A stretch of 43,539 nt of DNA from Clostridia bacterium (GTDB lineage Bacteria > Bacillota > Clostridia > Oscillospirales > Acutalibacteraceae), in NCBI GenBank assembly GCA_017626295.1, contig JAGAJB010000026.1, positions 1-43,539 on the forward strand, read 5' to 3'. The position numbers were made by a program, and so were the translations under genes. How positions within the stretch are numbered: position 1 is the stretch's first letter; each line of letters begins with the position of its first letter. Below the pieces are notes generated by a model, which had not been told where the DNA came from, did not search any database, and saw only the letters and a program-made list of their open reading frames with translations. Positions 598 to 22,640 of this stretch are shown in pieces.

Positions 598-1806
598 TTA
601 GCCGTATCTCTCATACATTTTTTCAAGGTATTCCTGGTAATTCTTATACTTTTGTTTTATATAATCGCTTGAGTTAAACTCACCCGAAGTAAGTATGCTG
701 GTAATACCCGTTCTGTCGCAAAATTCCTGGTATGACCTGGGTGCAACTTTAGTGGTACTTTCGGCTTTCTTTTTCGAGGAACTGCTTGAACTTGAACCTG
801 AACTTCTTGAAGAACCTGACGAATTTGCCTTTTTAACTGCAAGGGCATAATTTCGGTCGGCATTTTCCTGGTCCCGTTTGGCTTCCGCCTTTTTAAATGC
901 CATTTCATCCTGAAATTCCTTTCTGTCCAAGGCATCCTGATATTTTTCATAAGCGTATTCTCTGTCGCTTTCCCAGGCATCCACTTCATTAAGAAACGCT
1001 TCAAACTCTGCATCCGACATAGACGCAAGTTTATTAAGAAGATAGTCACCATCTGAATAATATTGCTGAAGTTTTCCTAAGTACTTTTCGTAATCATCAC
1101 CGTCAAGGGAACGAAGAATTGTTATATCATCAATAAGTTTATCGCCCTCATCGGTGTACTGCGCGTATGCCCTGTCGCGCAAATCCAGAGCAATATCGTT
1201 CAGTTCGTTAAGATATTCGTCGTAAGCCTGGTTACCCACGGTGGCGGCATAGGAGTTAAGGAAACCGCCTGTAAGCGCCGTCGCTTGCCCCAAGGTATCC
1301 ATCATAGCCTTTTTGCCGTTTTCAATATATTGCTCGCGATACTGCTCGTAAAGAGGGTCGGCATTCATATTGTAACTGAATTCTTCTCTGTTAAGAATGT
1401 CCTGAAGAACAGCGTCAATTTTATCCGAATACTGACTTTTATATTCACCCGGTTTATTTTTCTCCCAATTTGCCAAGGCATTTTCAGCCGAAATCAAATC
1501 GTTGCTTTTTTTATATTCGGGTCTTTTGGTTTCCTTCGGGGCAGTTATAACGTTTGTTACGGTATTTTTTTTAGAAGTTGATGAGGTACTTTTTTTATTA
1601 AGACTCCCCCATGTTTTTTCACCTACTATACCGTCAACCGAAAGTCCGTTTTTCTTCTGATAATCCTTAACCGCCGCCTGAGTTTTACTGCCGAACTGAC
1701 CGTCAACACTAAGTGAGTAACCGTAACTGTTCAATGCCTGTTGAAGTTTTTTTACATCGTCGCCCGATGAACCGTAAGAAATAGTTGAATATGCTATATT
1801 TACCAC
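598..1806 (-). CDS. Phage structural protein with N-terminal peptidoglycan-binding domain
   Basis: 402 residues. Residues ~8-69 form a PG_binding_1 domain (GSSGDDVKKLQQAL, then VDGQFGSKTQAAVKDYQ and VDGIVGEKTW), known to bind cell-wall glycan or peptide. The rest has no catalytic motif: a long charged, alpha-helical, tyrosine-rich region (~90-310), a Ser/Gly/Lys low-complexity linker (~315-345) and a C-terminal segment. Such a protein could help the tail engage the wall of a Gram-positive host, or be carried in the particle and released on entry. The start is GTG with a weak AGAAAGG placed very close to it, so the exact start is uncertain. The gene begins 5 bp after the 200-residue gene and is clearly in the late operon. 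Confidence 0.65.
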   Translation of the reverse strand: MVNIAYSTISYGSSGDDVKKLQQALNSYGYSLSVDGQFGSKTQAAVKDYQKKNGLSVDGIVGEKTWGSLNKKSTSSTSKKNTVTNVITAPKETKRPEYKKSNDLISAENALANWEKNKPGEYKSQYSDKIDAVLQDILNREEFSYNMNADPLYEQYREQYIENGKKAMMDTLGQATALTGGFLNSYAATVGNQAYDEYLNELNDIALDLRDRAYAQYTDEGDKLIDDITILRSLDGDDYEKYLGKLQQYYSDGDYLLNKLASMSDAEFEAFLNEVDAWESDREYAYEKYQDALDRKEFQDEMAFKKAEAKRDQENADRNYALAVKKANSSGSSRSSGSSSSSSSKKKAESTTKVAPRSYQEFCDRTGITSILTSGEFNSSDYIKQKYKNYQEYLEKMYERYG

Positions 1807-1811
1807 CCTTT

Positions 1812-2414
1812 CTATTCTTGATAATCTGCCAAGTAGCAGCCGCTTATATATACGGAAGTGCCTGCAGGTACTTCCACATCCGAACGGAATACCACTTCGC
1901 CTGTTTTATAGGTAACACCTGCTGTACTTTGTCCGCCCGATGTTAGATTTGCAATACTTTGCAAGGGAACAAATACACCCGGTGTGTGCTGAGGAATTTG
2001 CGCAAGATAATAAGTAACGCCGGCAGAAAGTGTTGTTGTCACCGAAAGACGAAGCCTTACAAAAACCATATTCAGACAAGGAAAATACCTTATGTCGTAA
2101 ACAAGGTTCTCTCCCTTATCCGTACACACGCAACTAAGTGTTTCGTAACTGTGAATTCCCGAAATATTATCGTTTAATTCATTGTATTTTGAAGCACTTT
2201 GCGACTGATATTTCCGTACTTCGTCACGGCAATCATTCGTATCTTTCTCTGTTTTCTCGTAAACTGTTTCCATTGCCTTTTCCACTTTATCTGCAAGGGC
2301 AAAAGAAATCGTTTCGTTAAGTTCAATTAAATAGTTTTTAAGAAGCAAAAAGCGACTGTCGGTAGAATACTTTTTTGAAGTTATATTAGGTATATTCAAA
2401 TTAAGGTCATACAT
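1812..2414 (-). CDS. Small phage tail-associated protein (unknown function)
   Basis: 200 residues, not assigned to a named family. The N-terminal half (to ~95) is helical and charged with a coiled-coil feel (ADKVEKAMETVYEKTEKD). The C-terminal half is beta-rich with Gly/Thr/Val repeats (VTTTLSAGVTYYLAQI, GGQSTAGVTYKTGEV), as in small tail spike or appendage domains. The ATG overlaps the stop of the preceding gene by 8 bp, indicating translational coupling. Its place between the probable tail nozzle and the wall-binding protein suggests a tail-tip role. This is inference from layout and composition only. Confidence 0.5.
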   Translation of the reverse strand: MYDLNLNIPNITSKKYSTDSRFLLLKNYLIELNETISFALADKVEKAMETVYEKTEKDTNDCRDEVRKYQSQSASKYNELNDNISGIHSYETLSCVCTDKGENLVYDIRYFPCLNMVFVRLRLSVTTTLSAGVTYYLAQIPQHTPGVFVPLQSIANLTSGGQSTAGVTYKTGEVVFRSDVEVPAGTSVYISGCYLADYQE

Positions 2415-4167
2415 TCAATTCACTCCCCGATTCAACTTTTCTTGAAATGCTGTAAATTTTTATGTCACCTTTACCTTTTATCTTTATACGCAAATGGTCA
2501 CATCTGGGAGTAATAAACGGCAAAGTAAACGAGCCCGTTTTATCCACTGTTTTATCAATTTGTTTTACCCACACTTTATTACTGTCAACTTCAAAATACA
2601 CCTGAAGTTTTGCGCCTTTTTCGCCGACGGCGCGAATGGTAATATTTGAATAGTATTTGTTTTCGGGAAGCGAAAGTCCCCATAAACCGCTTTCGGCACA
2701 CCACTCAAAATCATCTTCCGGATATCGCTTTGTAAAATCACCTGTAAATATGCCGTAAGGATTTTCACCGTCTATCATTCCCATTTGGTTTGTATCCCCT
2801 GTGTCCGCAATAAAATACAGATTACAGTTGTGCCGGGTGAATTCTTTGATATTTATGTTATCCTCTCTGTGCCAGATGTTTTTTTCCTCGTCAAACACAA
2901 AAAGATGTCTTTTCCTCTCTTTATCCGACATACACACGTAATATTTATTACCGCAAGCACCTGCCACCGCCTCGGAATAGTATTCGTTACCCAGATGAGA
3001 CGATACGCATACAGGCACACCGCCTTCGTAAGCACATATTCCCGTGGGGGATTTGTAATAAAGGGTTTCGTTTAAACACACAAGCGAGCGATGGGAGGAT
3101 TTTTGCACACCGCGTATATAGGAAGTGGTAATTGTATAAGGGGGATTCTGACCGTAAATTTTATGAACGCAGTTTTCTTTAAAGAAAAGTACGTAACCGC
3201 GAAAACTTATAGCCGCCGTAAAATTGCCGTCAGTACCTACGCTTGCGGCATAACTGTCCGTGGAAAGACCCATAAAAACGTTAAAGTTAGTAGGGTCACC
3301 AAGTTTTGATGCGTAAATTTCATTGGTCTTTGAATTACATCCCCATATTCTGTTACCGCTTTCGCAAACAAAATCCATATCAGGAATACGCCTTGACACA
3401 GATACAGGGGTGGTTATTATTACTTCCTTTTCCAAAATCCCCGTAATTATAAGATAATCGTCACCTTTATCGCGGATTATATGTTTTCCGTAAAATCCCG
3501 CATCGCGAAAGCCCACAAAATTAACGCAGTCATACTGATTAAAGTTTTTACCGATACCCTTACAGTTGATTCTTATATACGTTTCGGCTAAGTCAATCCA
3601 CATATCAACTGATTCGGAATACTGTTTGAGAGCGTGCGGTTCCCGTGAAGTGTCGTACCATAAATCTCCGTTGACGGCATTTTTCGGCATAACCGAACTG
3701 ACACTGTACCCCTCATACAAATCACCGTCGGCTTTACACATTACACAGACAGCACCCACTTCACTTTCAAAACGCGCCTCAAGACTACCGCAGTCGGAAA
3801 AATCTTCCGTATTGACATAAACCTTATCGGGAAAAATCAGAAGTTTTGACCCCATGGAAACAAATCTTCGTTCTTTTGATATTTCGGGGAAAGTCAAATC
3901 AAACAAATCCTTTCCGCCATGGTAGAGTTTACCGTTATTTATATAAAGAACCATATCCTTTGTGTAAAGGTCGTGAAGTTTATCTCCGTTTATTTCACTG
4001 AAATAAAACCTTTTATTTCTCGGGGAAAGTACGGGATAACAGTCACTGCTCATATTCTCCGTAAAAGAGAAAGCGTTTTCATCTATAACAATGTTATTTT
4101 CGTACCCCTTAAAAGAGGAAATCATATCAACACTGTTCTGCAAATCAAATAACCGCGGTTTATACAA
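2407..4167 (-). CDS. Probable phage tail-nozzle / stabilisation protein (beta-propeller-like)
   Basis: 586 residues, almost entirely short beta strands with repeated Trp/Tyr/Gly turns (GNRIWGCNSKTNEIYASKLG, NKYYVCMSDKERKRHLFVFD, ENIWHREDN) and no signal peptide or membrane segment. This pattern and length resemble podovirus tail-nozzle or stabilisation proteins, which fold as beta-propellers and extend the portal vertex. Recent phages of Clostridia often carry such a gene just after the small head genes. The gene starts at TTG with an AGGGGA ribosome site 7 bases upstream. The upstream stop overlaps it by 8 bp and the next ATG is 13 codons in, so TTG is the best start. The family call is by fold impression and gene order, not by a catalytic motif. 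Confidence 0.5.
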   Translation of the reverse strand: MYKPRLFDLQNSVDMISSFKGYENNIVIDENAFSFTENMSSDCYPVLSPRNKRFYFSEINGDKLHDLYTKDMVLYINNGKLYHGGKDLFDLTFPEISKERRFVSMGSKLLIFPDKVYVNTEDFSDCGSLEARFESEVGAVCVMCKADGDLYEGYSVSSVMPKNAVNGDLWYDTSREPHALKQYSESVDMWIDLAETYIRINCKGIGKNFNQYDCVNFVGFRDAGFYGKHIIRDKGDDYLIITGILEKEVIITTPVSVSRRIPDMDFVCESGNRIWGCNSKTNEIYASKLGDPTNFNVFMGLSTDSYAASVGTDGNFTAAISFRGYVLFFKENCVHKIYGQNPPYTITTSYIRGVQKSSHRSLVCLNETLYYKSPTGICAYEGGVPVCVSSHLGNEYYSEAVAGACGNKYYVCMSDKERKRHLFVFDEEKNIWHREDNINIKEFTRHNCNLYFIADTGDTNQMGMIDGENPYGIFTGDFTKRYPEDDFEWCAESGLWGLSLPENKYYSNITIRAVGEKGAKLQVYFEVDSNKVWVKQIDKTVDKTGSFTLPFITPRCDHLRIKIKGKGDIKIYSISRKVESGSELNV

Positions 4168-4828: not shown

Positions 4829-4835
4829 TTTTGAA

Positions 4836-5846
4836 TTAGTTTTCTTTAGCAGTTTCGCTGAATGCAGAACCGCTTTCAATTCTTACAAGGTATTCTTCAA
4901 CAAGTCTTTTTGCAGTTTTAAGACCTTTCCAACCCACTGAAGAACGCTGGTTAAGGGGGTCGTTACCGTAACCCTTCTGTTTAACGATGTGTTCAACACC
5001 GCCACCGTTAACGCTTGTTACACCGTAAGCATCCGCACCAATAATAAGGGTTGCAAATACTGCCGCGCCGTTGGCACCTTCGTTCCAGATTTTAGCCTCA
5101 GTGCTTTCAACGAAACGAACACCGCCAAGACAACCGATTTCACCTTTAAGCATATTTTCGGGTGTTGCGTATTTCTGTACTTCCATCCACTGATTGCCCG
5201 CTTCCTGCATAAGGTCATAAGCAACGTAAGGGTGGATAATACCCACATAGTAGCCGTCAATTTTGGGGGCATTCATAGCCTTGAGTTCTGCCGCTGCTTT
5301 GAAAACGTCTTTAACACGAAGAAGTGATGTTTTGTCAATCTGACTTCTGGAGGTAACGGCAGTTTCCGTTTCACCGGACACCTTGGGGCAGTACATAACG
5401 TTTGTGCCGCCTACGATTTCGTTTCTTACAATGGTATCCATAGTAAGACCTGCCTGAGAAGCAAGCTGCTTTGTAGCCTCAACAATAGTATTGTCAACTG
5501 CCGTAAGTTCAAGAAGGTCGGTCTGTTCAATGTAGTCACCGTACTGCTCAACAGTTGCGCTGACACTTGAAACGTTGAGTTTGTTACCTGTGGGGGTTAC
5601 ACCCTCTGTAAGAGGAGTAAGAGCCTTGGGAAGAGATGAAAACTTACGGAACTCAATAATCTTACCGCCGTTTTTGGGAATATCGCGTTTCTGACCGAAC
5701 TGGTCGTGAACGAGATAGGGCGATGCGAGTGTAATAAGAGTCTTATCGTAAAATGTTTTCATTTCGGCAGAGAGGTTTTCGGAAGTAGTCTTGTTAACTT
5801 CGTCACCTGCCGCAAATAACTGAATGTTTAAAATGTAATCTGTCAT
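4836..5846 (-). CDS. Major capsid protein, N4-gp56-like family
   Basis: 336 residues. The body matches N4-gp56-family HK97-fold capsid proteins: KNGGKIIEFRKFSSLPKALTPLTEGVTP near residues 57-85, then VEQYGDYIEQTDLLELTAVD, then a long domain ending GWKGLKTAKRLVEEYLVRIES. The first 11 residues end in ILNIQLF before AAGD. This is the leader type that the cysteine protease Prp removes from L27 and from phage 80alpha capsid and scaffold proteins, and a Prp homologue is encoded two genes upstream. Cleavage after Phe11 is therefore expected (inference). It follows the scaffold gene by 21 bp and is presumably the most abundant product of the operon. Confidence 0.88.
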   Translation of the reverse strand: MTDYILNIQLFAAGDEVNKTTSENLSAEMKTFYDKTLITLASPYLVHDQFGQKRDIPKNGGKIIEFRKFSSLPKALTPLTEGVTPTGNKLNVSSVSATVEQYGDYIEQTDLLELTAVDNTIVEATKQLASQAGLTMDTIVRNEIVGGTNVMYCPKVSGETETAVTSRSQIDKTSLLRVKDVFKAAAELKAMNAPKIDGYYVGIIHPYVAYDLMQEAGNQWMEVQKYATPENMLKGEIGCLGGVRFVESTEAKIWNEGANGAAVFATLIIGADAYGVTSVNGGGVEHIVKQKGYGNDPLNQRSSVGWKGLKTAKRLVEEYLVRIESGSAFSETAKEN

Positions 5847-5867
5847 AATTTTTCCTTTCCGATGGCT

Positions 5868-6626
5868 TCAGAATTTAATACTTGCGCCATTCTCGACCTG
5901 TTTTAATATTTTTAAAATATCCTGTGAGGTCAGCGAATTAACGTCAACAGAAGTAACGACAGCACTTTCGGAGGAAACACCGTTCTCAACAGGGCGTCTG
6001 CCCTTTGCCTCAATACCTTTAACCACCTGTTCACGAACTTTACCTGCCGTGTAAGCCATAGCACCGGAAAGAATTTCGTCTTTATGTACGGTTTCATAAG
6101 CCGCCCTTAAGGGCGCACCACCTATAAGAAGTTGTGAAAAAAGTTTGTTTTCGCGAATTTCTTTTCTTAAATCAAAATCGGGGAAACTCTCTTTCAACTC
6201 CTTACTCTCCTGAAGCCAGGAACTTATTCTTCCCCTCAAGTTTTCTCTTCGTGAAATGTGGTTATCAGGTGTATTCTTACGGAGTTCTGATTTCTCACCC
6301 TCAAGGAATGACATAAGTTTATCTTCCTCACCGGGCGAAATTCCGTATTTTTCCATAAGTTTTTCAACTGCGGGAGAAACCTTTTGCTTGTAGTCCTCCA
6401 ATTCTTTTGTCTGTTTAAATCTCTTGTCAATAATTGCCTGTGTTTTTTTAGTAAACTGCTCTTTGAATTTTCCGTTTATAAGTTCAGAAAATTCTGTTTC
6501 TGCATTTACTTCTTCGGCACCGTTCTGCCCGGCGACGGCACTTTCAGCGCCCGTTTCCCCGTTTGCAGTTTCTGAGCCCTCACTGCCGAATAACTGCAAA
6601 TCGAGAGTGTACCTTATTTTTTTCAT
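5868..6626 (-). CDS. Capsid scaffold protein
   Basis: 252 residues starting at MKKIRYTLDLQLFG, chosen because AAAGGAAAA lies at proper distance; the frame is open further upstream but without a ribosome site. The protein is acidic and helical with many Glu/Lys/Gln (FSELINGKFKEQFTKKTQAIIDKRFKQTKELEDYKQK), typical of scaffolds that fill the procapsid and leave before DNA packaging. Like the capsid protein, it carries an N-terminal LDLQLF leader followed by a small residue, so both partners share the putative Prp site. The basic, helical C-terminal part may contact the capsid shell. It is preceded by an unusual 250 bp gap in the operon that holds a terminator-like hairpin and a repeat element. 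Confidence 0.8.
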   Translation of the reverse strand: MKKIRYTLDLQLFGSEGSETANGETGAESAVAGQNGAEEVNAETEFSELINGKFKEQFTKKTQAIIDKRFKQTKELEDYKQKVSPAVEKLMEKYGISPGEEDKLMSFLEGEKSELRKNTPDNHISRRENLRGRISSWLQESKELKESFPDFDLRKEIRENKLFSQLLIGGAPLRAAYETVHKDEILSGAMAYTAGKVREQVVKGIEAKGRRPVENGVSSESAVVTSVDVNSLTSQDILKILKQVENGASIKF

Positions 6627-6741
6627 AAATTTTCCTTTCTTTTTAAGAGCCTTTGCTCTCAGTAAAAAAATCAGTTGCAACTTTCATCGTCTTTCCGAAG
6701 TGTCAAAGAGATGTTTTATATAAAACTCTCTTATCTATATA

Positions 6742-6767
6742 AAAACCGCTTTGGCCGAAACGGTTTT
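6742..6767 (-). terminator. Terminator-like hairpin inside the phage late operon
   Basis: AAAACCG and CGGTTTT arms enclose a second self-complementary core (TTTGGCCGAA). The T-run at the end of the arm continues in both directions, so the hairpin can act on either strand. It separates the portal/Prp genes from the scaffold/capsid genes on the minus strand. Full termination would require a new promoter for the scaffold and capsid genes; I see only a lone TTGACA at about 6701-6706 without a convincing -10. Confidence 0.6.
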
Positions 6768-6773
6768 TTACAC

Positions 6774-6852
6774 ATACCTCCTTTGCGAAAGGAGGGGGAC
6801 CATTGCGTAGTACCCGGAGCAATGGTGGAGGATTCTAGCACCGCAAGGTGCG
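6774..6852 (+). repeat. Palindromic hairpin repeat element, short form
   Basis: Stem 1 is CCTCCTTT / AAAGGAGG, then GGGG, then stem 2 ACCATTGC / GCAATGGT, then GGAGGATTCT, followed by a small GCACC / GGTGC hairpin. This is the same layout as the hairpin modules in the large islands of this window (stem 1, GGGGGACC, stem 2, GGTGG..TTCT) with different stem sequences. It lies in the untranslated gap between Prp and scaffold genes, meaning that the element entered a prophage late operon. Confidence 0.6.
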
Positions 6853-6876
6853 TATAATAAAATCTTTTACCTTATA

Positions 6877-7197
6877 TCATTCAAATCCAACATACTCCGG
6901 ATAATGTTCATGAAGCATTAAAAGACCTGTTATGCAAGTGTCTGTAATAGCAGACACACGCTCCTTTGAAAAGTCAAAACTTTCAATTTCCAAGCAAACG
7001 TAACCCTCACGCACAATATCCTTGTGAAGTTTTAATCTGTCTTTTGCTTCCTCATCGCGAATACAGTTAACAAGCGTAAAAACCAATGCGGAAACACCTG
7101 CACAAACCACGTCTTTTCCGCTTTCGGAAAAACCGCTGTGCCCCTCAATTACTATAAGGGTGTTATCATAGTACTCCCTGTAAAAAACTTTCGTCAC
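6877..7197 (-). CDS. prp: Prp-type cysteine protease (ribosomal-processing protease family), phage-borne
   Basis: 106 residues, the usual Prp length. The diagnostic block is GHSGFSESGKDVVCAGVSAL, with candidate catalytic His20 and Cys32. Prp is a homodimeric cysteine protease that in Firmicutes removes the N-terminal extension of ribosomal protein L27 and is also used by phage 80alpha to trim capsid and scaffold. The host copy normally sits between rplU and rpmA; this one lies between portal and scaffold in a phage operon. GTG start, overlapping the portal stop by 4 bp, so it is translated with the portal. The likely substrates are the scaffold and capsid encoded just downstream, both with LQLF leaders. 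Family assignment is strong; substrate assignment is inference. Confidence 0.85.
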   Translation of the reverse strand: MTKVFYREYYDNTLIVIEGHSGFSESGKDVVCAGVSALVFTLVNCIRDEEAKDRLKLHKDIVREGYVCLEIESFDFSKERVSAITDTCITGLLMLHEHYPEYVGFE

Positions 7198-8852
7198 AGA
7201 GTACTCACCCCTGCACTGAGTTTTGCCGCCAATGCGCTCTTACCTTCAAAATCCATCATACCGATAGCAATTAAAGCCTGCTGACGCATTTCGGGATTAA
7301 ACATTCCTGCACTGTATAATTGCAAAGCGAGTTCATTCTGACTTATTTTTGAAAAGGGGTTTGCTTTTTCGGCACAGACCTTAATATCAAATACAGGTTT
7401 TCTTACGCCCATATCAATACCGAACGCACTGCCCTGACTTTTCACGCGAATCGCTGAATTATCGTATGTAACAAACTGTTGTTCGCCGTTTTCACCGAGA
7501 ATTCTGAAAAAGCGCGGTTCATCATAAAACTGACGTATAAGTTCAACCGCCAGAGTATTAAGTTCCGAAAACGCTCTGTAACCGCTTTTAACCATATCCC
7601 TTGTAAGTTTACCGCCTGCTTCCTGCAACGCGGCAATAGCCGAAGCAGCAGTTACACCGCTTGAAACACCGCCCTGTGAAAAGTCACGGTTACCGCTTGT
7701 TTCTTTGAGTTCATCTATTTTAGTGTTAAGAATACCCAGATATATTTCGGGAATACCCGAAAGTTTTATTTCTCTGATACTGTCCTCGCCTAAATTACTG
7801 CCCGAAACGTGAACAAAATTATTGCTCCAATCCGCGAATTCTTCCTCATTTACAGCACCCGATGAATTTATAAAATAGCGGGGATTTGTTGCCATAACCG
7901 CATTTTTCACAAGTGCATTACCCAGCATATCAATCTGCTTTTGGGCATCTTTCATAATGTCTATGTAACCGAAACCGCAAGGCGTACCCTCTTCAACAAA
8001 AAGCGAGTCGAACACAAAGGGGTACATACCGTGGTCGTAAAATCCGCGTTCTGCGTATTCGGGGTCATTTTCCGAAGCGTAAAGCAATTCGCCGTTGCAG
8101 AATTTACAGTAATGAACGGTTTCAACACCGTCTCTTATAACTTTGTAATACCTGTCAATAACTGCGCTTTTCTCCGAAGTGTCTACGGAATCGTCATAAA
8201 CGTAATGTGCAATTTCCACCGAGGATGAGCCCAACTTACCCGATAACTGCGGATAAAGTGAAAGCAGAGTTTCGTTATCCGTAAGTTCTACGTGAAAAAC
8301 ATTTTTACTTTTCTGAATATCTTTAATGCCCGGTTCCCAGAAAAGATTTAAAATATCCACCTGTTTTATTTCAATATCGCCCAAGCCGTTGTTTTTTAAA
8401 GGGTTCCAGAATATTCCGTAAACCGCCGTACCTGCTTTGAGTTTGTACCACCAGGCATCGCTGTAAATCTTCTCAAAGCCGTTTCTTTCAAAAATAACAG
8501 GCAAAACCTGTGAAAGAACAGTCGCCGCCTTTTCGTCGCTTGCCTCCCTGGGCAGGCAGGTTACCGCGGGGTAGTTATCCATAGCATCTGCGTGTTTATT
8601 GGCAATTGAGTTAAAAAGCCACGCAGAAGCGTTGTCGGTACCTTTATCACCTCTCAACTGTTCCCAATGTCGCATTTTAAACCATTGCTCATTGTCAACA
8701 ATTCTTGTTTCAAGGGATGTCTTTGATTCTTTATATTTTTTTAGAATATTAAGCGCTTTCTCAATATCCTCTTTGCCGATTTTTCCGCGTACACCTATGC
8801 TTTCGGCAGGTTTCACCTTTTCAAAACCTTTTTTATTATCTTTGTTATCCAT
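7194..8852 (-). CDS. Phage portal protein
   Basis: 552 residues, beginning ATG after AAGGAGA. Lies directly after the large terminase gene (9 bp gap). Features of short-tailed-phage portals: an N-terminal helical region with NEQWFKMRHWEQL and NSIANKHADAMDNYP, a central wing domain (DIEIKQVDILNLFWEPGIKDIQ), GFGYIDIMKDAQKQIDMLGNALVKNAVMATNP for the stem/crown region, and a C-terminal helical part (GGVSSGVTAASAIAALQEAGGKLTRDMVKSGYRAF). The portal is the dodecameric channel through which DNA is packaged and later ejected; it binds the large terminase during packaging. Translationally coupled to the Prp gene downstream. Confidence 0.85.
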   Translation of the reverse strand: MDNKDNKKGFEKVKPAESIGVRGKIGKEDIEKALNILKKYKESKTSLETRIVDNEQWFKMRHWEQLRGDKGTDNASAWLFNSIANKHADAMDNYPAVTCLPREASDEKAATVLSQVLPVIFERNGFEKIYSDAWWYKLKAGTAVYGIFWNPLKNNGLGDIEIKQVDILNLFWEPGIKDIQKSKNVFHVELTDNETLLSLYPQLSGKLGSSSVEIAHYVYDDSVDTSEKSAVIDRYYKVIRDGVETVHYCKFCNGELLYASENDPEYAERGFYDHGMYPFVFDSLFVEEGTPCGFGYIDIMKDAQKQIDMLGNALVKNAVMATNPRYFINSSGAVNEEEFADWSNNFVHVSGSNLGEDSIREIKLSGIPEIYLGILNTKIDELKETSGNRDFSQGGVSSGVTAASAIAALQEAGGKLTRDMVKSGYRAFSELNTLAVELIRQFYDEPRFFRILGENGEQQFVTYDNSAIRVKSQGSAFGIDMGVRKPVFDIKVCAEKANPFSKISQNELALQLYSAGMFNPEMRQQALIAIGMMDFEGKSALAAKLSAGVSTL

Positions 8853-8861
8853 AAAATCTCC

Positions 8862-10235
8862 TTATACTGTCCTGTAATAGCCTTTATGTAAATTAAGCGG
8901 GTCATCACCCAATGCAGTAACTTTCTTTTTATAAGTAGGTGCAATAGGTCTTGCCATACACATATATCTGACTTCGTCTGCAATATGGTCCTCGCCCGTT
9001 GTATCCAAATCTTCGGGGTTGTTGTTACTGAATTTCAATTCGGGAACAGTCCTTATAAACCCCTTACAAGTATTAAAAACATACATCATCGGTATGCCGT
9101 TTTCGTCAAAACTTAATCTGTAATGAACCTGCATCCAACCGGGAAGCCTTTTGTTATCGCCCTTTGTAAAATACACGCCGTTCCTGTCCGCCGCCTCAAT
9201 AATGGCTTCACCTCGCGAAGCATCCCATATAGACGGGTCAGCAACACCTATAATCCTTTTATTTTTAAGCCACCTGTGTTGCTTTTCTATATCGGCAATT
9301 TCCGAAAAAATCTTTTCCGGGGGCCACTTCACACCTTCATTCGGGGTTTTCGTACAACCGTACAGTTCAAGTATTCTGTACAGCCTTCCGTCATAATCAA
9401 CCGCCCACCAGGCACACGAAAAAGGCTTTGCGTAACCGAAGTCGAAGGACCTGTATATCACCCAGTCGTTAGGTATCTCAAAAGGCTCTATAACGTGAGT
9501 AAAAACTCCGTCTTTGTAATGTTCGGGAACGTCTCTGAACTCCTCAAAAAACTGACCGTCAAATATATCCCAATTGCCGAAGCGGTGCGCCTGACGGAGT
9601 TTTTCGGGCAGTGAATCAAGAACCTTAACGTATTCGGGGTTTGTTTTCATAAGCACCGTGTTATCGTCGATGGTTGCGGGAATGAATATATAGTCATTGG
9701 GGTCCTCGCCGCTTTCGTAACGTCCTTTAACAAACAGCCGTTTAAACCAGTTATGACCTACGCCGCCCGGATTCCCCGTAAAATACATCCGTGGTTTAAA
9801 ATCACTTCGGGTTGTTCTGTTGCAAGTCATCAGAAATTGTATTTGAGTAAATGTAAAATGGGTGCATTCTTCAACACCTATAACGTCGTACTCCTGACCC
9901 TGATACTGATAAATGTCATTTTCCGTGTCGCAATAACCCAACCTTATTCTTGAACCGTTGGGAAAAATGAACGCTCTTTCGTCACGCTTGTACCGTGCAA
10001 TTCCGTTTAATTGGGAAAGTAGCGGAAGCAAATGGTTTTCACGAAGTTCGGGAAGAGTCTTTCTTAAAAGCAAAAGTTTTAAACCGCTGTATTCAAATGC
10101 AAGTAATACGAACTTCGTTCTCAATGCCCAGGATTTTCCGCCCCCACGCGCTCCGCCGTAACCTATAAACCTGTGGTGACTGTTAAAAAACTCCTTTTGT
10201 TTTTCATTCGGCGGAGAAATAAAAAGTTCTTTCAT
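8862..10235 (-). CDS. terL: Phage terminase large subunit
   Basis: 457 residues with both expected domains. ATPase: Walker A GARGGGKS at residues 28-35, Walker B VIGVEE at about 118-123, coupling motif TGNPGG near 175. RNase-H-like nuclease: acidic residues in SFDFGYAKP (Asp265), VADPSIWD (Asp333) and EDHIADEVRY (Asp416/420). It drives packaging of concatemeric phage DNA into the prohead through the portal and cuts the genome. The ATG overlaps the stop of the 88-residue gene (ATGA). All motif residues are intact, so the gene does not look decayed. Confidence 0.93.
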   Translation of the reverse strand: MKELFISPPNEKQKEFFNSHHRFIGYGGARGGGKSWALRTKFVLLAFEYSGLKLLLLRKTLPELRENHLLPLLSQLNGIARYKRDERAFIFPNGSRIRLGYCDTENDIYQYQGQEYDVIGVEECTHFTFTQIQFLMTCNRTTRSDFKPRMYFTGNPGGVGHNWFKRLFVKGRYESGEDPNDYIFIPATIDDNTVLMKTNPEYVKVLDSLPEKLRQAHRFGNWDIFDGQFFEEFRDVPEHYKDGVFTHVIEPFEIPNDWVIYRSFDFGYAKPFSCAWWAVDYDGRLYRILELYGCTKTPNEGVKWPPEKIFSEIADIEKQHRWLKNKRIIGVADPSIWDASRGEAIIEAADRNGVYFTKGDNKRLPGWMQVHYRLSFDENGIPMMYVFNTCKGFIRTVPELKFSNNNPEDLDTTGEDHIADEVRYMCMARPIAPTYKKKVTALGDDPLNLHKGYYRTV

Positions 10236-10498
10236 TTACTCCACTCCTCAAGTTGTTTTTCAAATCGGATAACCACACCGTCAGAAACGTCGTGTACACC
10301 GTCACAATCCTCCAACAAGCCGTACAGTTCCCGCAAAGCACCCACGCTCTCTTTTAAAAATTTCGCATCAATATCAGGGTTACCTGTATTACGGAAACTC
10401 TTTCGCGCTTTTTTTACTATATCGTCAATCAAAGCGCTCATATTATCAGCAGCCGAGGATACTCTTTTATATTTATCGGGAATTTTTTTCTCGCTCAA
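10232..10498 (-). CDS. Small helical protein in the small-terminase position
   Basis: 88 residues if started at TTG, which overlaps the stop of the upstream ORF (TTGA) and has AAAGGGG about 9 bases upstream. A longer reading from an ATG 25 codons earlier would overlap the upstream gene by 79 bp and lacks a better ribosome site. The protein is acidic and helical (DKYKRVSSAADNMSALIDDIVKKARKSF, FLKESVGALRELYGLLEDC). It immediately precedes terL, where the small terminase subunit is expected, but no helix-turn-helix DNA-binding signature is clear. I call the position, not the function. Confidence 0.5.
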   Translation of the reverse strand: MSEKKIPDKYKRVSSAADNMSALIDDIVKKARKSFRNTGNPDIDAKFLKESVGALRELYGLLEDCDGVHDVSDGVVIRFEKQLEEWSK

Positions 10499-10722
10499 GT
10501 TTTCAAGCCCCTTTCGTAAAGCATTGAAACCGTTCTGTAATGCTGACAGTTTCTGCCTCCCTGAGAACTGCAAACAGCAATTTCATAATATCTTTTCTTT
10601 TTATTGTCCTGAAATCTGTGAAAGCATTTTGTACCGTTTAAAATACCCTCGCAGGCAATAAAACTGTCCCCTTCTTTTAAATAAAAAGGGCATTCAATTC
10701 TTCCTTCTATCATTTTTGACAT
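10495..10722 (-). CDS. Small cysteine-rich phage protein, possible zinc binder
   Basis: 75 residues from MSKMIEGRIECPFYLKEG, chosen because AGGAGG lies 10 bases upstream; an in-frame GTG sits too close to that site. Cys residues in ECPFY, ACEGI, TKCFH, AVCSS and NCQHY, with nearby His, could hold a zinc ion. ORFs of this type (MIEG.I.CPFY... ending ML/MLYERGL) are common next to terminase genes in Clostridia phages. The role is not known to me; a transcription or packaging accessory is conceivable. It is the first gene after the putative minus-strand phage promoter. Confidence 0.6.
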   Translation of the reverse strand: MSKMIEGRIECPFYLKEGDSFIACEGILNGTKCFHRFQDNKKKRYYEIAVCSSQGGRNCQHYRTVSMLYERGLKT

Positions 10723-10753
10723 TTTTCGCACGCCTCCTGTACTATTATTGGTA

Positions 10754-10782: not shown

Positions 10783-10802
10783 ATTAGTGAAATTTGTACA
10801 GA

Positions 10803-10863
10803 TTTCCGAACCGCAATTGCATTATAGTACAGGTTTCCGAACTTTTCAACCTATTTTCCGAAC
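10803..10863. promoter_or_regulatory. Three direct operator-like repeats TTTCCGAAC
   Basis: Exact copies of TTTCCGAAC begin at 10803, 10834 and 10855, spaced 31 and 21 bases apart, close to three and two helical turns. One lies in the spacer of the minus-strand promoter, one just upstream of its -35 and one downstream of its -10. This is the arrangement expected for repression by the adjacent XRE protein. Binding is inference. Confidence 0.65.
10821..10849 (-). promoter_or_regulatory. Promoter of the phage late operon
   Basis: On the minus strand TTGAAA, 17-base spacer, TATAAT. It faces the repressor promoter across about 40 bases, so the two transcripts converge and overlap. It is the only strong promoter seen for the terminase-to-tail operon. 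Confidence 0.65.
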
Positions 10864-10919
10864 ATTCGTTCGTTCGACATTTTTTTGTAAGTTTGCACAA
10901 AATTTGGGAGGTAGAAACT

Positions 10920-11255
10920 GTGAACATGTATGAAAAAATTCAACAGTTATGTAATGAAAAAGGTATAAAACCCGCCGGTTTATGTAAAGCCACAGGTATT
11001 CCCAAAAGCACTTTATCGGAATTAAAACAAGGCAGAACCAAAACATTGTCCACTCAGACACTAAGTAAAATAGCCCAGTATTTTAATGTATCCCTGGGGT
11101 ACTTTGACGATAACTTTGACCCCGTTGAAGATGCAAAAGACGAACTTTTCCAAAAGCGCAAACTTCTGTTTGATATGTCAAAACGCGCTACCGAAGACCA
11201 ACTTGATACATTCCTTGTAATGTTCCAGGCTCTTATAGATAAGGAGGAGAGATAA
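10920..11255 (+). CDS. XRE/CI-type phage repressor
   Basis: 111 residues. GTG start, chosen because GGGAGG lies 8 bases upstream; a nearby ATG two codons later is spaced less well. Residues ~3-60 form an HTH_3 (XRE) domain: IQQLCNEKGIKPAGLCKATGIPKSTLSELKQG...LSKIAQYFNVSLGYF. The C-terminal ~45 residues are charged and helical and may dimerise. Short repressors with an HTH and no RecA-cleaved domain are commonly inactivated by an ImmA-type protease, and such a gene follows directly. It likely binds the three TTTCCGAAC sites upstream and silences the phage late promoter. Confidence 0.85.
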   Translation: MNMYEKIQQLCNEKGIKPAGLCKATGIPKSTLSELKQGRTKTLSTQTLSKIAQYFNVSLGYFDDNFDPVEDAKDELFQKRKLLFDMSKRATEDQLDTFLVMFQALIDKEER

Positions 11256-11460: not shown

Positions 11461-12182
11461 TTATAATTCGTAATTCGTAATGCGTAATTATCGGAACTGC
11501 GTTGGCGATTTATAATAAAGTTGATGTGTTGCGAAGCCTATCCCTCATGCGAGCCTTGGCTCGTAGGAGGGGGGACCGTTCTTTAGATGAATTTTTGTTT
11601 TGATTTTGTTTTAAAGCGCGTCCGAAACCGAAACATTTAATATAATCGGTCGGAACGGTGGGTGGTACCATTCTCATTCCGCTTGCGAAATATATCGCAT
11701 ACAAAGTATATATCGCACCCAAAGGGCATATGGGTAGTTCTCTTGCGGTTATTCTTCAGTCGGATAGAACAATGTTTTATCATCCCTGTTTCGACTTTGT
11801 CGGAATAGGGAGGGGGACCGCGACAGCGGTGGTGGGTAGTTCTCTCGCGGTTATTCTTCAGTCGGATAGAACAATGTTTATATAAACCATAAAGAAACAA
11901 TCTTCTACCCAACTGACAACTAACGGTCAGTGAACTACCCACCACCATTCTGCCCGAACTTTTATACAACAAAAAACTTTATCACCCGTGGTAAATATAC
12001 AAAAAGCAACAATTATATCGAAGAATGGTCCCCCTCCCTATTTGCAAGCAAACAGGGATGATAAGGCTTCGCAACACCGCAACTTAATCTATAATCGGCT
12101 TGCCCCTTTAATTACGCATTACGCATTATAATCGCCAACGCAGTTCCGCAATTCCTCACTCCTAACTCCTCACTCCTAATTT
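11461..12182. repeat. Repeat island A: MITE-like hairpin element with heptamer borders
   Basis: No gene. From left: heptamer tandem (ATTCGTA type), a flank reading TTATCGGAACTGCGTTGGC, then a left arm (GTTGATGTGTTGCGAAGCC.., about 11515-11578). In the centre are hairpin modules, including two copies about 105 bases apart of a block starting GGGTAGTTCTC. The right arm (about 12024-12090) is an inverted match to the left arm, followed by ATTACGC heptamers, the flank in reverse and CACTCCT/AACTCCT heptamers. The open frames that cross it are repeat-derived and have no ribosome sites. The right half is an inverted near-copy of the left part of island B. Confidence 0.75.
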
Positions 12183-12217: not shown

Positions 12218-13108
12218 TTATTTCTTCATTTCTGCAAGGTCGCGGTAGTTAATCAGTTTTATACCGCAAGCCTTGATGTGCTGTAGTGTCTGGGGGTCGG
12301 AGAAAAGTTTATGTTCCCATACCCTTCTGTGCCATGCACCTGTAATTGCTTTCAGTTCGTCACTTTCAAGTGCGGGGTGGATATAAGTTTCGGTAACACC
12401 GTTGGGGAAGGACCTGTAAAGTTCGTATATATACTCTTTAAAGTTTTCGTAACTGTCGTTCTGAGGTCCGTTCCATTCACCCGGAATAAGATAATCGGGC
12501 ATAGCCACGCCTTTTGATTTCGCATAAGCAAGAATCTTATCGTAGAACATAGAAATCATATCTAAATCTATTTTAACTGCAAGGGTATCGTTGGAGAACA
12601 TCTCGGGAACGAAAGTACCGGGGAAACGGAAAGGAAGTCCGTTTTCGCCTGCAATGTCCAGGGTAAGATTAAGAAGTTCAAATCTGCCTGTTTCAATACC
12701 GTAAAGCGAACCCATATGGTTATCGAGGTGTGACGGCACAACACCGAAAGACTTAAATCTTTCTATCTGCGCTCTGATTTCTGTTTCAACTTCGTCAATG
12801 TCGCAGTTTTTCTCAAACTCGTCAGACTCGTGGTACATAAAATCTTCACTGTCACGCAAAGAACCTGTACAACCCTGAGCAATGGGACTCCATCTGTAAT
12901 TACCCCACTCACTTGTGAAAGTAAGGTGTACGCCCACTGCATATTCGGGATGTTCTGCAGCCCATCTGCCCGCCTCTTTTGCCCAACTGCAAGGTGTCAT
13001 AATTGTGGCAGACGTAATACCGCCCTTTTGGAACAAATCTGCAACTGCCATATTGGCAGAGTGGCACATACCGAAATCGTCAGCATTGATAATCAAATAT
13101 TTATCCAT
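12218..13108 (-). CDS. YdjC/ChbG-family carbohydrate deacetylase
   Basis: 296 residues from MDKYLIINADDFGM; AAGGAG precedes this ATG, so the longer open frame is not used. The NADDFG signature (Asp10, Asp11) plus later histidines in GVHLTF and SHLDNHMG form the divalent-metal site of YdjC-like TIM-barrel deacetylases. Known members remove N-acetyl groups from chitooligosaccharides or related sugars in the cytoplasm. The C-terminal half (LIPGEWNGPQNDSYENFKEYIYELYRSFPNGVTETYIHPALES) keeps the family pattern. It lies 13 bp after the peptidoglycan-binding protein gene and is probably in one operon with it, hinting at a cell-wall sugar substrate (inference). Confidence 0.87.
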   Translation of the reverse strand: MDKYLIINADDFGMCHSANMAVADLFQKGGITSATIMTPCSWAKEAGRWAAEHPEYAVGVHLTFTSEWGNYRWSPIAQGCTGSLRDSEDFMYHESDEFEKNCDIDEVETEIRAQIERFKSFGVVPSHLDNHMGSLYGIETGRFELLNLTLDIAGENGLPFRFPGTFVPEMFSNDTLAVKIDLDMISMFYDKILAYAKSKGVAMPDYLIPGEWNGPQNDSYENFKEYIYELYRSFPNGVTETYIHPALESDELKAITGAWHRRVWEHKLFSDPQTLQHIKACGIKLINYRDLAEMKK

Positions 13109-13121
13109 TAAGCACACTCCT

Positions 13122-14201
13122 TTATTTGTTGGCTTCTTCAAAAAGGTCAGAAAGGCTCATAGCCTTTTTCTCTGAGGTTTCTGTTGTTTCAGGAACACTC
13201 TGAGTTTCAGATACTTCTGTTTTATCCTCAATTGTATTTTTCTTCTTTTTCTTTTTAAGCATAAATATAATTATAATCGCAATTATTGCAACGCACCATA
13301 TAGCCGCAAGAATAATAATCACAATACCCAAAGTACTGTTTTTTTCTCCGCTATCCGCCACAGGAGAAGTTACGCCTATTGTTTCGGGGGCAGTAAGTAT
13401 AACTGCGGGTGGTGCAGTTGTTGCAGTTACAGAATGTTCGTAATAAAGAAGTTCAATTTTATCAATAACCGCATCATTTACAATACCGTCGGAAGCAAGT
13501 CCTTTTTCTTGCTGAAGTTTCTTAACGAGAGCCTGGGTTTCTGCATCGTAAACACCTGTTACGGGTTTACCTGTAAGGCCGTAATTTGTGTAAATGAACA
13601 TCCATTGCATCCATTTAACACCTTCACCGCTGTCACCGGGTTTAATTTCACCTGCAGGCTTTTTATAAGGGTTACCCGTTGCGGCAAAATTCACGGTTTC
13701 ACTCTGAGAGGAGGCGCTGACTGCAGGCGGAGTTGTGGCACTCGTTACGGGTGCATTTGTCTGCCCTTGGATATATGTAACCGCAGGAACAGGGTCAATG
13801 AAACCTACGTTATTGGTGCTTACAGGGTATGTAGCCACGGGAGTTGAGTTTTGTGTGTTTTCACCGGGGTCACCGCCAATTATACTGCCTATAATATCGC
13901 CCACGTCACCTATAATTCCGCCAAAACCGCCGAAACCGCCGATTAAACTGCCGGAATTTGATACTGCGTTGGTTTTATCTTCAATGTAATTATCAACTTT
14001 GCTTTGAGTTGTCGAGTTATTCATATCCGCCGCTTCATCGCGAACAGTGTTCATATCAGCAGCCTCATCATAATACTGCTGACGCTCAGCGTAAGATATG
14101 TCACTCAATCCACCGTTTTCAGTTTTGTTACCCAACAGAACGGTAAGTGAAACAGACGCAACTATAACCGCGGCACAAAAAGCCATCAATTTTCTTTTCA
14201 T
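13122..14201 (-). CDS. Membrane protein with extracellular peptidoglycan-binding domain
   Basis: 359 residues from MKRKLMAFC, with AAGGATGGAG upstream; an earlier ATG lies inside the ribosome site. Order: N-terminal signal or anchor helix (~3-23), Gly/Ile-rich low-complexity region (GGFGGFGGIIGDVGDIIGSI), Thr/Pro/Ala-rich linker, PG_binding_1-like domain (~180-260, PGDSGEGVKWMQWMF...VYDAETQALVKKLQQEKGL..DGIV), a second Thr/Ala/Pro linker, a strongly hydrophobic helix (~297-322), then a Lys-rich stop-transfer and a Glu/Ser/Thr-rich tail. With two hydrophobic ends it would hold a wall-binding domain outside the cell. No enzyme motif is visible. Operon with the YdjC gene; promoter seen upstream. 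Confidence 0.75.
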   Translation of the reverse strand: MKRKLMAFCAAVIVASVSLTVLLGNKTENGGLSDISYAERQQYYDEAADMNTVRDEAADMNNSTTQSKVDNYIEDKTNAVSNSGSLIGGFGGFGGIIGDVGDIIGSIIGGDPGENTQNSTPVATYPVSTNNVGFIDPVPAVTYIQGQTNAPVTSATTPPAVSASSQSETVNFAATGNPYKKPAGEIKPGDSGEGVKWMQWMFIYTNYGLTGKPVTGVYDAETQALVKKLQQEKGLASDGIVNDAVIDKIELLYYEHSVTATTAPPAVILTAPETIGVTSPVADSGEKNSTLGIVIIILAAIWCVAIIAIIIIFMLKKKKKKNTIEDKTEVSETQSVPETTETSEKKAMSLSDLFEEANK

Positions 14202-14989: not shown

Positions 14990-15751
14990 TAATTAGGGGC
15001 AAAGCCGATTTTAATTCGTAATGCGTAATTCGTAATGCGTAATTAAAGGGGCAAGCCGATTATAGATTAAGTTGCGGTGTTGCGAAGCCTTATCATCCCT
15101 GTTTGCTTGCAAATAGGGAGGGGGACCGTTCTCCGATATAATTGTTGTTTTTTGTATATTTACCACGGGTGATAAAGTTTTTTGTTGTATAAAAGTTCGG
15201 GCAGAATGGTGGTGGGTAGTTCACTGACTGCTATTCTTCATTTGGATAGGACCACTTATCCCCGTAAGGTACGCACCTGTGCGTACCACTGAGATAAAGA
15301 CATATTAAATGAAGCGCGAAGCCTATCCCTCTTGCAAATCTTTGATTTGTAGGAGGGTGGCACCGCAGGTGACGGGTGGTACCTTCTCGCGGGACGAATA
15401 GATTCGTCCCTTACGGTAGTTAATCGCTCTATACACCCAAAGAATAACCGCGAGAGAACTACCCACCACCGCTGTCGCGGTCCCCCTCCCTATTCCGACA
15501 AAGTCGAAACAGGGATGATAAAACATTGTTCTATCCGACTGAAGAATAACCGCGAGAGAACTACCCACCACCGCTGTCGCGGTCCCCCTCCCTATTTGCA
15601 AGCAAACAGGGATGATAAGGCTTCGCAACACATCAACTTTATTTTAAATTGCCAATGCAGTTCCGATAATTACGTATTACGAATTACGCATTACGAATTA
15701 TAATCGGCGTTAGCCCCGAAATTTTGCATTTTGCATTCTGCATTTTGCATT
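14990..15751. repeat. Repeat island B: inverted partner of island A with nested hairpin modules
   Basis: No gene. The left border has heptamers (ATTCGTA/ATGCGTA), then an arm with GTTGCGGTGTTGCGAAGCC, stem CCCTGTTTGC / GCAAATAGGG and GGGGGACC (about 15068-15127). Inside are a long stem-2 insert, a module with a CAAATC / GATTTG stem and an inverted tandem of two modules containing ACCGC / GCGGT. The right arm is at about 15581-15640, followed by ATTACG heptamers and TTTTGCA heptamers. Its left part is the reverse complement of the right part of island A and its right part of the left of A. The two islands thus form a long inverted repeat around the 12.2-15.0 kb block. Confidence 0.75.
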
Positions 15752-22152: not shown

Positions 22153-22640
22153 AATGCAAAATTCAAAATGCAAAATTCAAAATTATCGGAACTGCGTTGG
22201 CAAATTAAAATAAAGTTGATGTGTTGCGAAGCCTATCATCCCTGTTTCATCTATGATGAAATAGGGAGGGGGACCGCGCCAGCGGTGGTGGGTAGTTCTC
22301 TTTCGGTTTTTCTTCAGTGGGATAGAACAATATTTAGACAAACCATAAAGAAACAATCTTCTACCCAACTGACAACTAATGGTCAGTGAACTACCCACCA
22401 CCATTCCGCCCGAACTTTTATACAACAAAAAACTTTATCACCCGTGGTAAACATACGAAAAACAACAATTATATCGGAGAACGGTCCCCCTCCCTATTTG
22501 CAAGCAAACAGGGATGATAAGGCTTCGCAACACCGCAACTTAACCTATAATCGGCTTGCCCCTTTAATTACGCATTATAATCGGCTTTGCCCCGAAATTT
22601 TGCATTTTGTATTTTGCATTCTGCATTTTGCATTTTTATA
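22153..22640. repeat. Repeat island C: simplest full MITE-like element with heptamer borders
   Basis: No gene. The left border consists of heptamers ATGCAAA/ATTCAAA and the flank TTATCGGAACTGCGTTGGC. The left arm (22212-22275) has stem CCCTGTTTCATC / GATGAAATAGGG and GGGGGACC, followed by an ACCGC GCCA GCGGT hairpin and GGTGGGTAGTTCTC. The centre is about 120 bases with CTGACAACTAATGGTCAG. The right arm (about 22484-22543) is the inverted counterpart, with stem CCCTGTTTGC / GCAAATAGGG. The right border is TTTTGCA heptamers. The element of about 330 bases has terminal inverted repeats of about 60 bases and no coding capacity. Confidence 0.75.

Follow-up and report, generated by a model that had tools for sequence, protein, structure and literature searches.

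A Prp-type cysteine protease as the probable maturation enzyme of a gene transfer agent-like element in a clostridial genome

The window analysed here, a stretch of 43,539 nucleotides from a Clostridia bacterium of the Acutalibacteraceae (contig JAGAJB010000026.1, assembly GCA_017626295.1), carries a cluster of phage-like head genes in which a small cysteine protease of the Prp family is encoded between the portal gene and a putative scaffold gene. The question raised by this locus is what such an enzyme does in a head cluster, whether the element can work without the Prp of its host, and whether the element is a phage at all. From the sequence, the gene order, a predicted structure and comparison with related elements we conclude that the protein is probably an autonomous, Prp-type particle-maturation (prohead) protease, and that the cluster is best read as part of a gene transfer agent (GTA)-like element. 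Made from the slot portal-protease-scaffold-capsid, Prp would recognise, at the N-termini of the scaffold and capsid proteins, a hydrophobic leader whose last residues are Q-x-F, and would trim both leaders after the phenylalanine during particle assembly; the cleavage and its timing are what we infer here. The cellular Prp may share this work in the host of the window.

The protease and its candidate substrates

The window protein is a member of PF04327 (E 7e-17, 61.9 bits against a family cut-off of 27) and matches phrog_4478, annotated as 'peptidase'. It has the His-Cys dyad of the family (His20, Cys32), together with the structural aspartate, Asp29, three residues before the cysteine. As modelled with AlphaFold 2 (AF2), its fold is that of Prp; the mean pLDDT is 92.6, with a soft stretch at residues 21–30. 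Foldseek matches the model to the Staphylococcus aureus Prp-substrate complex 7jvs (E 1.8e-6, TM 0.73), and all 14 PDB matches with E below 0.001 are Prp-family chains. Family, PHROG and gene map thus bear out the initial annotation, which had recognised a 106-residue Prp homologue with His20 and Cys32 between the portal and scaffold genes. Head proteases usually lie in the order portal, protease, scaffold, capsid. The window gene has the position of a head-maturation protease, in a block of portal, scaffold and capsid genes of which two products, the predicted substrates, bear a Prp-type site. The slot between rplU and rpmA is filled in this genome by another copy, on contig C35; the window Prp is 28% identical to this cellular enzyme of its own host.

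Prp-type leaders are found on both candidate substrates. That of the scaffold is MKKIRYTLDLQLF↓GSEG (the arrow marks the predicted cut), of the type LDLQLF↓G, and that of the capsid protein MTDYILNIQLF↓AAGD, of the type LNIQLF↓A, with cleavage expected after Phe13 and Phe11 respectively, as originally proposed. Such motifs are rare by chance. The strict form, [LIVMF]x[LIVMFC]Qx[FLMY][AGS], occurs at a rate of 0.0065 per 30 residues (114 matches in 526,847 residues from the bodies of open reading frames (ORFs) in the element loci), and of the 143 ORFs of at least 60 amino acids in the window the scaffold and capsid ORFs are the only ones that have it near the N-terminus.

Relatives were taken from 70 prp loci of IMG/VR and from capsid loci, namely the best 80 of 463 in IMG/VR and the best 80 of 139 in GTDB. 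With the loci of the same genus and of Faecalibacterium included, 184 loci have a capsid gene, an upstream prp on the same strand and a scaffold candidate; 104 elements are non-redundant, the window among them. The histidine and the cysteine are each present in 103 of these, the same 103 in both cases, and the aspartate in 96, the sole element without the dyad being L190; a separate 57-row Prp alignment was pre-filtered on the active site and is no independent test of the dyad. Among the 103 elements other than L190, 49 have the strict motif on both proteins, 32 on a single one and 22 on neither. A leader profile, trained on the very sites that it scores, exceeds 10 bits on both proteins in 85 of the 103 elements compared with 7 of 1,234 other ORFs, and 5 bits in 92 compared with 61. 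In siphovirus-like relatives with prp (L017, L026, L027 and L058) the major tail (tube) protein carries a Prp leader as well.

The sequences of the scaffold and capsid leaders co-vary beyond what phylogeny accounts for. Across 92 elements (the 104 without L190, whose Prp is dead, and 11 others), 440 of 644 leader positions are identical between the two proteins, which are taken to be unrelated; 352 are expected when leaders are shuffled among all elements and 388 when they are shuffled within capsid clusters (40% cut), and neither shuffle reached 440 in 20,000 permutations. Within clusters, P2, P4 and P5 each gave 0 of 20,000 and P6 gave 29, and P1 hardly varies. The result is the same in a stricter set of 85 elements, in which 420 of 595 positions are identical (367.6 expected within clusters; 0 of 10,000). 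Copying of leaders from gene to gene was considered and is not seen: the codons at identical leader residues are the same in 228 of 436 cases, the expectation from the genes' own usage being 227.5, and the leaders therefore do not look copied.

The variants are informative in themselves. In L236 both proteins have LNLRLF↓D where the host L27 has ISLQHF↓A; L171 pairs MDLRLF↓D with MNLRLF↓D, L132 pairs LDLTLF↓E with FKIDLF↓E, and L138 and L241 have IQHF in both leaders. The capsid of L217 has MTLTHF↓S, its host L27 INIQLF↓A. Capsid P1' is acidic in 5 of 6 elements that lack the structural aspartate and in 2 of 84 that have it (10 unscored; Fisher p 3e-6). When enzyme columns were compared with odd leaders, position 29 stood out for an acidic P1', the rest being weaker (770 tests per set, with no correction for the tree). 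Since the tree holds two independent losses of the aspartate, we take this pairing as a hint only. Taken together, the leader variants offer a natural substrate-specificity series for the Prp family, which is under study as an antibiotic target (PMC9405229).

The cluster and its place in the chromosome

The element was first called a phage; an ordinary phage was considered as a reading and set aside on the evidence of conserved flanks and host-like distances. Of 22 genomes in the genus, 17 have TerL, among them 10 of the 11 good ones; a further genome, G008, has a partial cluster (L184) on a cut contig and is counted as one with G051, their cellular Prps having the same coordinates. Among 14 genomes compared, the neighbouring helix-turn-helix (HTH) regulator is shared by 12, the gene at 12218–13141 by 9 and transporter genes on the TerL side by 7, and genes beyond the amidase, on the tail side, are shared by up to 8. 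Distances between elements (TerL, portal, capsid) track those between hosts (L21, Prp, L27), with a Mantel r of 0.92 (p=0.0005; 14 genomes, 91 pairs, 1,999 permutations) and r from 0.68 to 0.90 for single genes. The flanks and distances point to vertical inheritance at a fixed chromosomal place, as in a GTA, and the cluster does not appear to be a phage in the narrow sense. The TerL and Prp frames are free of inner stops, and no integrase or replication family was found among the cluster proteins scanned (some tail ORFs lay outside the scan, and on its left side the window stops short of the cluster end). In the sister species G018, whose cluster is the only one followed to its end, a holin and an amidase close a unit of about 16 kb. 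The window is best read as holding the head half of such a GTA-like element, inherited with the chromosome, whose particle would package host DNA.

These shared neighbours, parallel distances and open frames all tell against a plain prophage, or a degenerating remnant of one, that these genomes share by chance. We consider this unlikely, while recognising that every gene of the cluster is phage-like, that two related clusters of the same genome, on contigs C12 and C23, lie in a phage-like setting, and that the flanks are not universal: G014 and G020, for which the flank is available, lack the gene at 12218, and G005, G010 and G016 have differing tail-side neighbours, with other genes shared among them.

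The two related clusters were found in a profile search, which gives four Prps for the genome of the window; of 14 control genomes only three have a match to the Prp profile, and Escherichia coli is not among them. One is the cellular enzyme, in the order rplU-prp-rpmA and accompanied by a long L27 (MLKINIQLF↓AHKK); the other three, in the window, C12 (L006) and C23 (L007), have a portal gene on one side and a scaffold gene on the other. C12 and C23 have the same order terL-portal-prp-scaffold-capsid as the window, and both leaders are present in all three clusters. Between the window and C12 the capsids are 91% identical, the Prps 27% and the scaffolds 37%. With the capsids near-constant, the divergence of the other two suggests that protease and scaffold changed fast or were swapped, and the capsid identity itself suggests that a prophage and the GTA-like element have exchanged sequence. 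Upstream in C12 a small-terminase-like gene and other phage-like genes are recognised, by eye alone.

Element enzyme or host enzyme

Because the host owns rplU-prp-rpmA and a long L27, independence from the host cannot be read from the window. The second prp between rplU and rpmA, for which a search had been proposed, is thus present. The window capsid leader equals that of the host L27 at all six positions from P5 to P1' (the scaffold leader at three of six), so that either enzyme might cut it. This raises the possibility that cutting falls to the host Prp, as it does for staphylococcal phage 80alpha, the element Prp being redundant or a chaperone. Most elements of the genus favour an autonomous enzyme: 15 of 18 have an intact prp, two of these with an odd scaffold leader (L082, L083). 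L183, L184 and L190 can instead be read as depending on the host Prp, and weigh against it. In L183 and L184, from sister species and representing one loss event, prp is absent and the portal gene is followed directly by the scaffold gene. Both leaders of L183 and L184 equal the host L27 leader at six of six positions, a match on both proteins that is seen in none of the 14 genus elements that carry prp and whose host leader is known. In L190 the ORF in the prp slot (4831–5136) can be aligned to the window Prp but has lost the region of the catalytic His and Cys; by its sequence it could be a pseudo-protease or a case of early decay, and the scaffold and capsid leaders are kept. The loss in L183 and L184 and the dead copy in L190 indicate that an element can apparently lose its own prp where the host has one, and such lineages retain both leaders, as though the host Prp now served in its place.

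Hosts without a detected cellular Prp offer a comparison. For Faecalibacterium, the 31 genomes that share a genus with F. prausnitzii CNCM I 4541 were surveyed. Its L27 begins MAHKKG, without a leader, in all 24 readable of 27 L27 matches; rplU and rpmA are adjacent in F. prausnitzii, and no Prp lies beside L27 across the readable L27 loci of the genus. There are 32 Prp matches across 30 genomes, the remaining genome having none; 26 lie in frames of at least 300 residues, and five of the six shorter ones sit in an element as judged by a capsid neighbour (L332, L343, L346, L204 and L238; G090 was left out). The long frames are fusions: in 14 contexts from 13 genomes, 12 have Prp and scaffold in a single long frame with a leader site at the junction of the two, L346 has them separate and L343 is frame-broken, and the capsid leader is present in all 14. 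In ten aligned fused proteins an LQxF site lies at the domain junction. Three further hosts, G038, G058 and G059, have a short L27 and only element Prps; as these are metagenome-assembled genomes (MAGs), absence of the cellular enzyme is less certain there. On this sequence evidence Faecalibacterium appears to be a natural knock-out of cellular Prp.

Leaders are present in Faecalibacterium and in three other hosts in which no cellular Prp was found, the catalytic histidine and cysteine are kept in 103 of 104 elements, and variant leaders such as LRLF↓D and LTHF↓S differ from the host L27. Cutting by the host enzyme, with a redundant or chaperone-like element Prp, is accordingly improbable, in spite of the second prp and the leader match in the window's host. 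As for the self-contained, host-independent cassette first envisaged, the cassette is real and widespread, and in Faecalibacterium it has no detected cellular counterpart; the host independence is supported for relatives, may or may not hold for the window, whose host has a cellular Prp and a long L27, and does not apply to the prp-less sister lineage.

An autonomous maturation protease must also be weighed against other unfavourable results. Eleven of the 104 elements were dropped for a weak leader score on one or both proteins, in some cases from a wrongly chosen scaffold ORF; co-variation at P3 and P1' is not significant within the tightest clusters, and in 12 of 92 elements Gln at P3 is confined to a single leader. 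An ATG stands at the site in 12 of 14 Prp-scaffold junctions (15 frames were given, of which the pattern missed L030), often behind a purine-rich stretch, so that the scaffold may be made both as a fusion and from an inner start. A docked leader was sought in an AF2 model of the fusion, which is poor (pLDDT 63.8, below 50 in the leader stretch). The gravest caution comes from 80alpha, where cleavage of the capsid and scaffold leaders is dispensable and the scaffold N-terminus is essential (PMC5744158), so that leaders might mainly guide assembly. That the leaders are assembly or chaperone-binding signals that Prp binds and need not cut is nevertheless a very remote prospect, favoured by these 80alpha results and by the dead Prp retained in L190, and opposed by the motif inside a single Prp-scaffold frame in Faecalibacterium-type elements (an inner start being possible), by co-variation that includes P2, beside the scissile bond, and by near-invariant catalytic residues.

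Other candidate controls without prp are less clear. L189, L191, L246 and L255 hold scaffold-capsid pairs, some with leader-like starts, and no terminase or portal was recognised by eye upstream; they may be satellites or remnants, and for want of those genes are unfair prp-minus controls. L167 and L103, tried as prp-less phages, are also unclear. Bacillus phage Pony, whose capsid belongs to the same family (37%), lacks a leader and, in the stretch examined, a prp; it is a single case.

The origin of the enzyme was approached by placing 113 element Prps in one tree with 42 cellular ones, built on few columns and with a midpoint root only. Element and cellular labels change twice, compared with 37 times when shuffled, and supported branches force both changes; 41 of the 42 cellular rows lie on one side. 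The window Prp therefore does not look like a recent copy of the host gene, and recent capture was rejected. Nor is there support for the suggested tie between capsid assembly and ribosome maturation: element Prps stand apart from cellular ones bar one long-branched row, and such elements also occur in hosts with a leaderless L27. A bolder view, that element Prps are an old self-standing capsid-maturation class that shifts its specificity with the leaders (to the point of exchanging an acidic residue in the enzyme for one in the substrate), that bacterial Prp and long L27 are a domesticated offshoot of the viral system and not its origin, and that prp-less users such as 80alpha are derived, strikes us as doubtful. 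The exceptional row, L294, is the very divergent cellular Prp of a Treponema MAG with a short L27; a contig of the same bin holds a cluster of the present type (L241), which may be a binning error.

Gene layout and comparison with known systems

All cluster genes lie on the minus strand of the window (Table 1). They are transcribed in the order two small ORFs, TerL, P22-like portal, Prp, putative scaffold, capsid, two small ORFs and internal-virion or short-tail protein, followed by a short tail-side ORF and a peptidoglycan-binding protein before the contig end. The GTG start of prp overlaps the portal stop codon. The scaffold start is the ATG at 6626, with AAAGGAAA upstream; the longest ORF opens further up, at a TTG (6680). 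The scaffold label itself is putative, being based on position and on phrog_13908, a family of unknown function. The 187-bp gap between prp and scaffold was considered as a repeat and rejected, its sequence being unique in the genome. The chromosomal gene at 12218–13141 is one that we take to be YdjC-like. Intergenic sequence at 11637–11972, 15323–15631 and 22183–22428 of the window is alike, with the same peptide stretches in frames on either strand, and looks like a short repeated element.

Table 1. Features of the cluster and its neighbours, in window coordinates.
Feature	Position	Strand	Basis
Prp-type cysteine protease, 106 aa, His20/Asp29/Cys32	6877..7197	-	PF04327, phrog_4478, AF2 model, Foldseek
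Putative scaffold protein, 252 aa	5868..6626	-	Position between Prp and capsid; phrog_13908 (function unknown)
Scaffold Prp-type leader MKKIRYTLDLQLF, predicted cut after Phe13	6588..6626	-	Sequence, motif frequency, co-variation with the capsid leader among related elements
Major capsid protein, 336 aa	4836..5846	-	phrog_1357 (E 2e-86); PF13252/PF25209
Capsid Prp-type leader MTDYILNIQLF, predicted cut after Phe11	5814..5846	-	Sequence, motif frequency
P22-like portal protein	7194..8852	-	PF16510 (E 2e-30); phrog_156
Terminase large subunit (TerL)	8862..10235	-	PF04466; phrog_979
Small conserved ORF directly before TerL, small-terminase position	10232..10573	-	Family in 10 genomes; sister-species copy without Pfam or PHROG match
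Small conserved ORF, cluster start	10495..10731	-	Conservation; sister-species copy without family match
Conserved cluster ORF, 77 aa	4549..4782	-	phrog_15239
Conserved cluster ORF, 130 aa	4160..4552	-	phrog_12105
Internal virion / short-tail protein	2407..4167	-	phrog_511 (E 5e-63)
Tail-side ORF, shorter than sister-species copies	1812..2414	-	Tail PHROGs match sister-species copy
Peptidoglycan-binding cluster protein	598..1806	-	PF01471; endolysin PHROGs
Next cluster ORF, cut by contig end	1..591	-	Conservation; sister-species cluster continues to holin and amidase
HTH regulator, conserved cluster neighbour	10794..11255	+	PF13443; in 12 of 14 genomes compared
Chromosomal gene often conserved beside cluster	12218..13141	-	In 9 of 14 genomes compared

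Cellular Prp (YsxB, MEROPS C108, PF04327; structures 7jvs, 7kld, 2g0i and 2idl) shares with the window enzyme the predicted fold, the Cys-His dyad and the structural aspartate; it differs in lying between rplU and rpmA and on the opposite side of the tree (41 of 42 cellular rows). Closer in setting are Lactococcus phage PLgT-1, where the gene is annotated 'peptidase', and Latilactobacillus phage TMW 1.1447 P1, in which a Prp (phrog_4478) follows the portal gene directly or after one tiny ORF and the scaffold and head proteins carry leaders, as in the window. Unlike the window they have a minor head gene after Prp and are ordinary phages. Dorea phage DO134P1 has an unannotated prp (L009:6001–6258), with its N-terminus cut in the listed frame, and no leader was found there. 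The single protease-scaffold frame of the Faecalibacterium elements has parallels in the C and Nu3 genes of phage lambda and in the protease-scaffold genes of herpesviruses, although the protease families are unrelated; in lambda the scaffold Nu3 is made from an inner start within C, to which the possible inner start in Faecalibacterium may be likened. Among the matches listed from the open literature, no paper is, by title and abstract, on a phage- or GTA-borne Prp as capsid protease.

In 80alpha, as described in PMC5744158 and PMC9405229, capsid and scaffold carry the same type of leader and are cut by Prp after the phenylalanine; in contrast to the window element, the phage itself encodes no protease and depends on that of its host. 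The capsid role of this cleavage is called unclear in PMC5744158, since cutting is dispensable in 80alpha whereas the cell cannot do without Prp. Where an element supplies the enzyme itself, above all in hosts with a leaderless L27 and no detected cellular Prp, the capsid and ribosome roles come apart and the former becomes testable.

The nearest described system is FpGTA I, reported in PMC12946183 as a 10.5 kb operon near-ubiquitous in Faecalibacterium that encodes TerL, portal, scaffold, capsid and proteins of short-tailed phages; particles of ~40 nm contain DNA fragments of 8.4–8.9 kb, with GTA-like packaging. The main text has no match for 'protease', 'peptidase' or 'Prp', and its authors note that further maturation genes may await identification (PMC12946183). 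From content and prevalence, the Faecalibacterium loci described above would be FpGTA I. The window cluster has a similar gene set and is 41–43% (TerL), 50–52% (portal) and 57–58% (capsid) identical to four Faecalibacterium clusters (L337, L341, L345 and L349); it differs from FpGTA I in its freestanding prp gene and in a host that retains a cellular Prp. A Prp-type protease in the GTA-like clusters of abundant gut bacteria thus provides a candidate enzyme, and a candidate cleavage site, for a known gene-transfer system.

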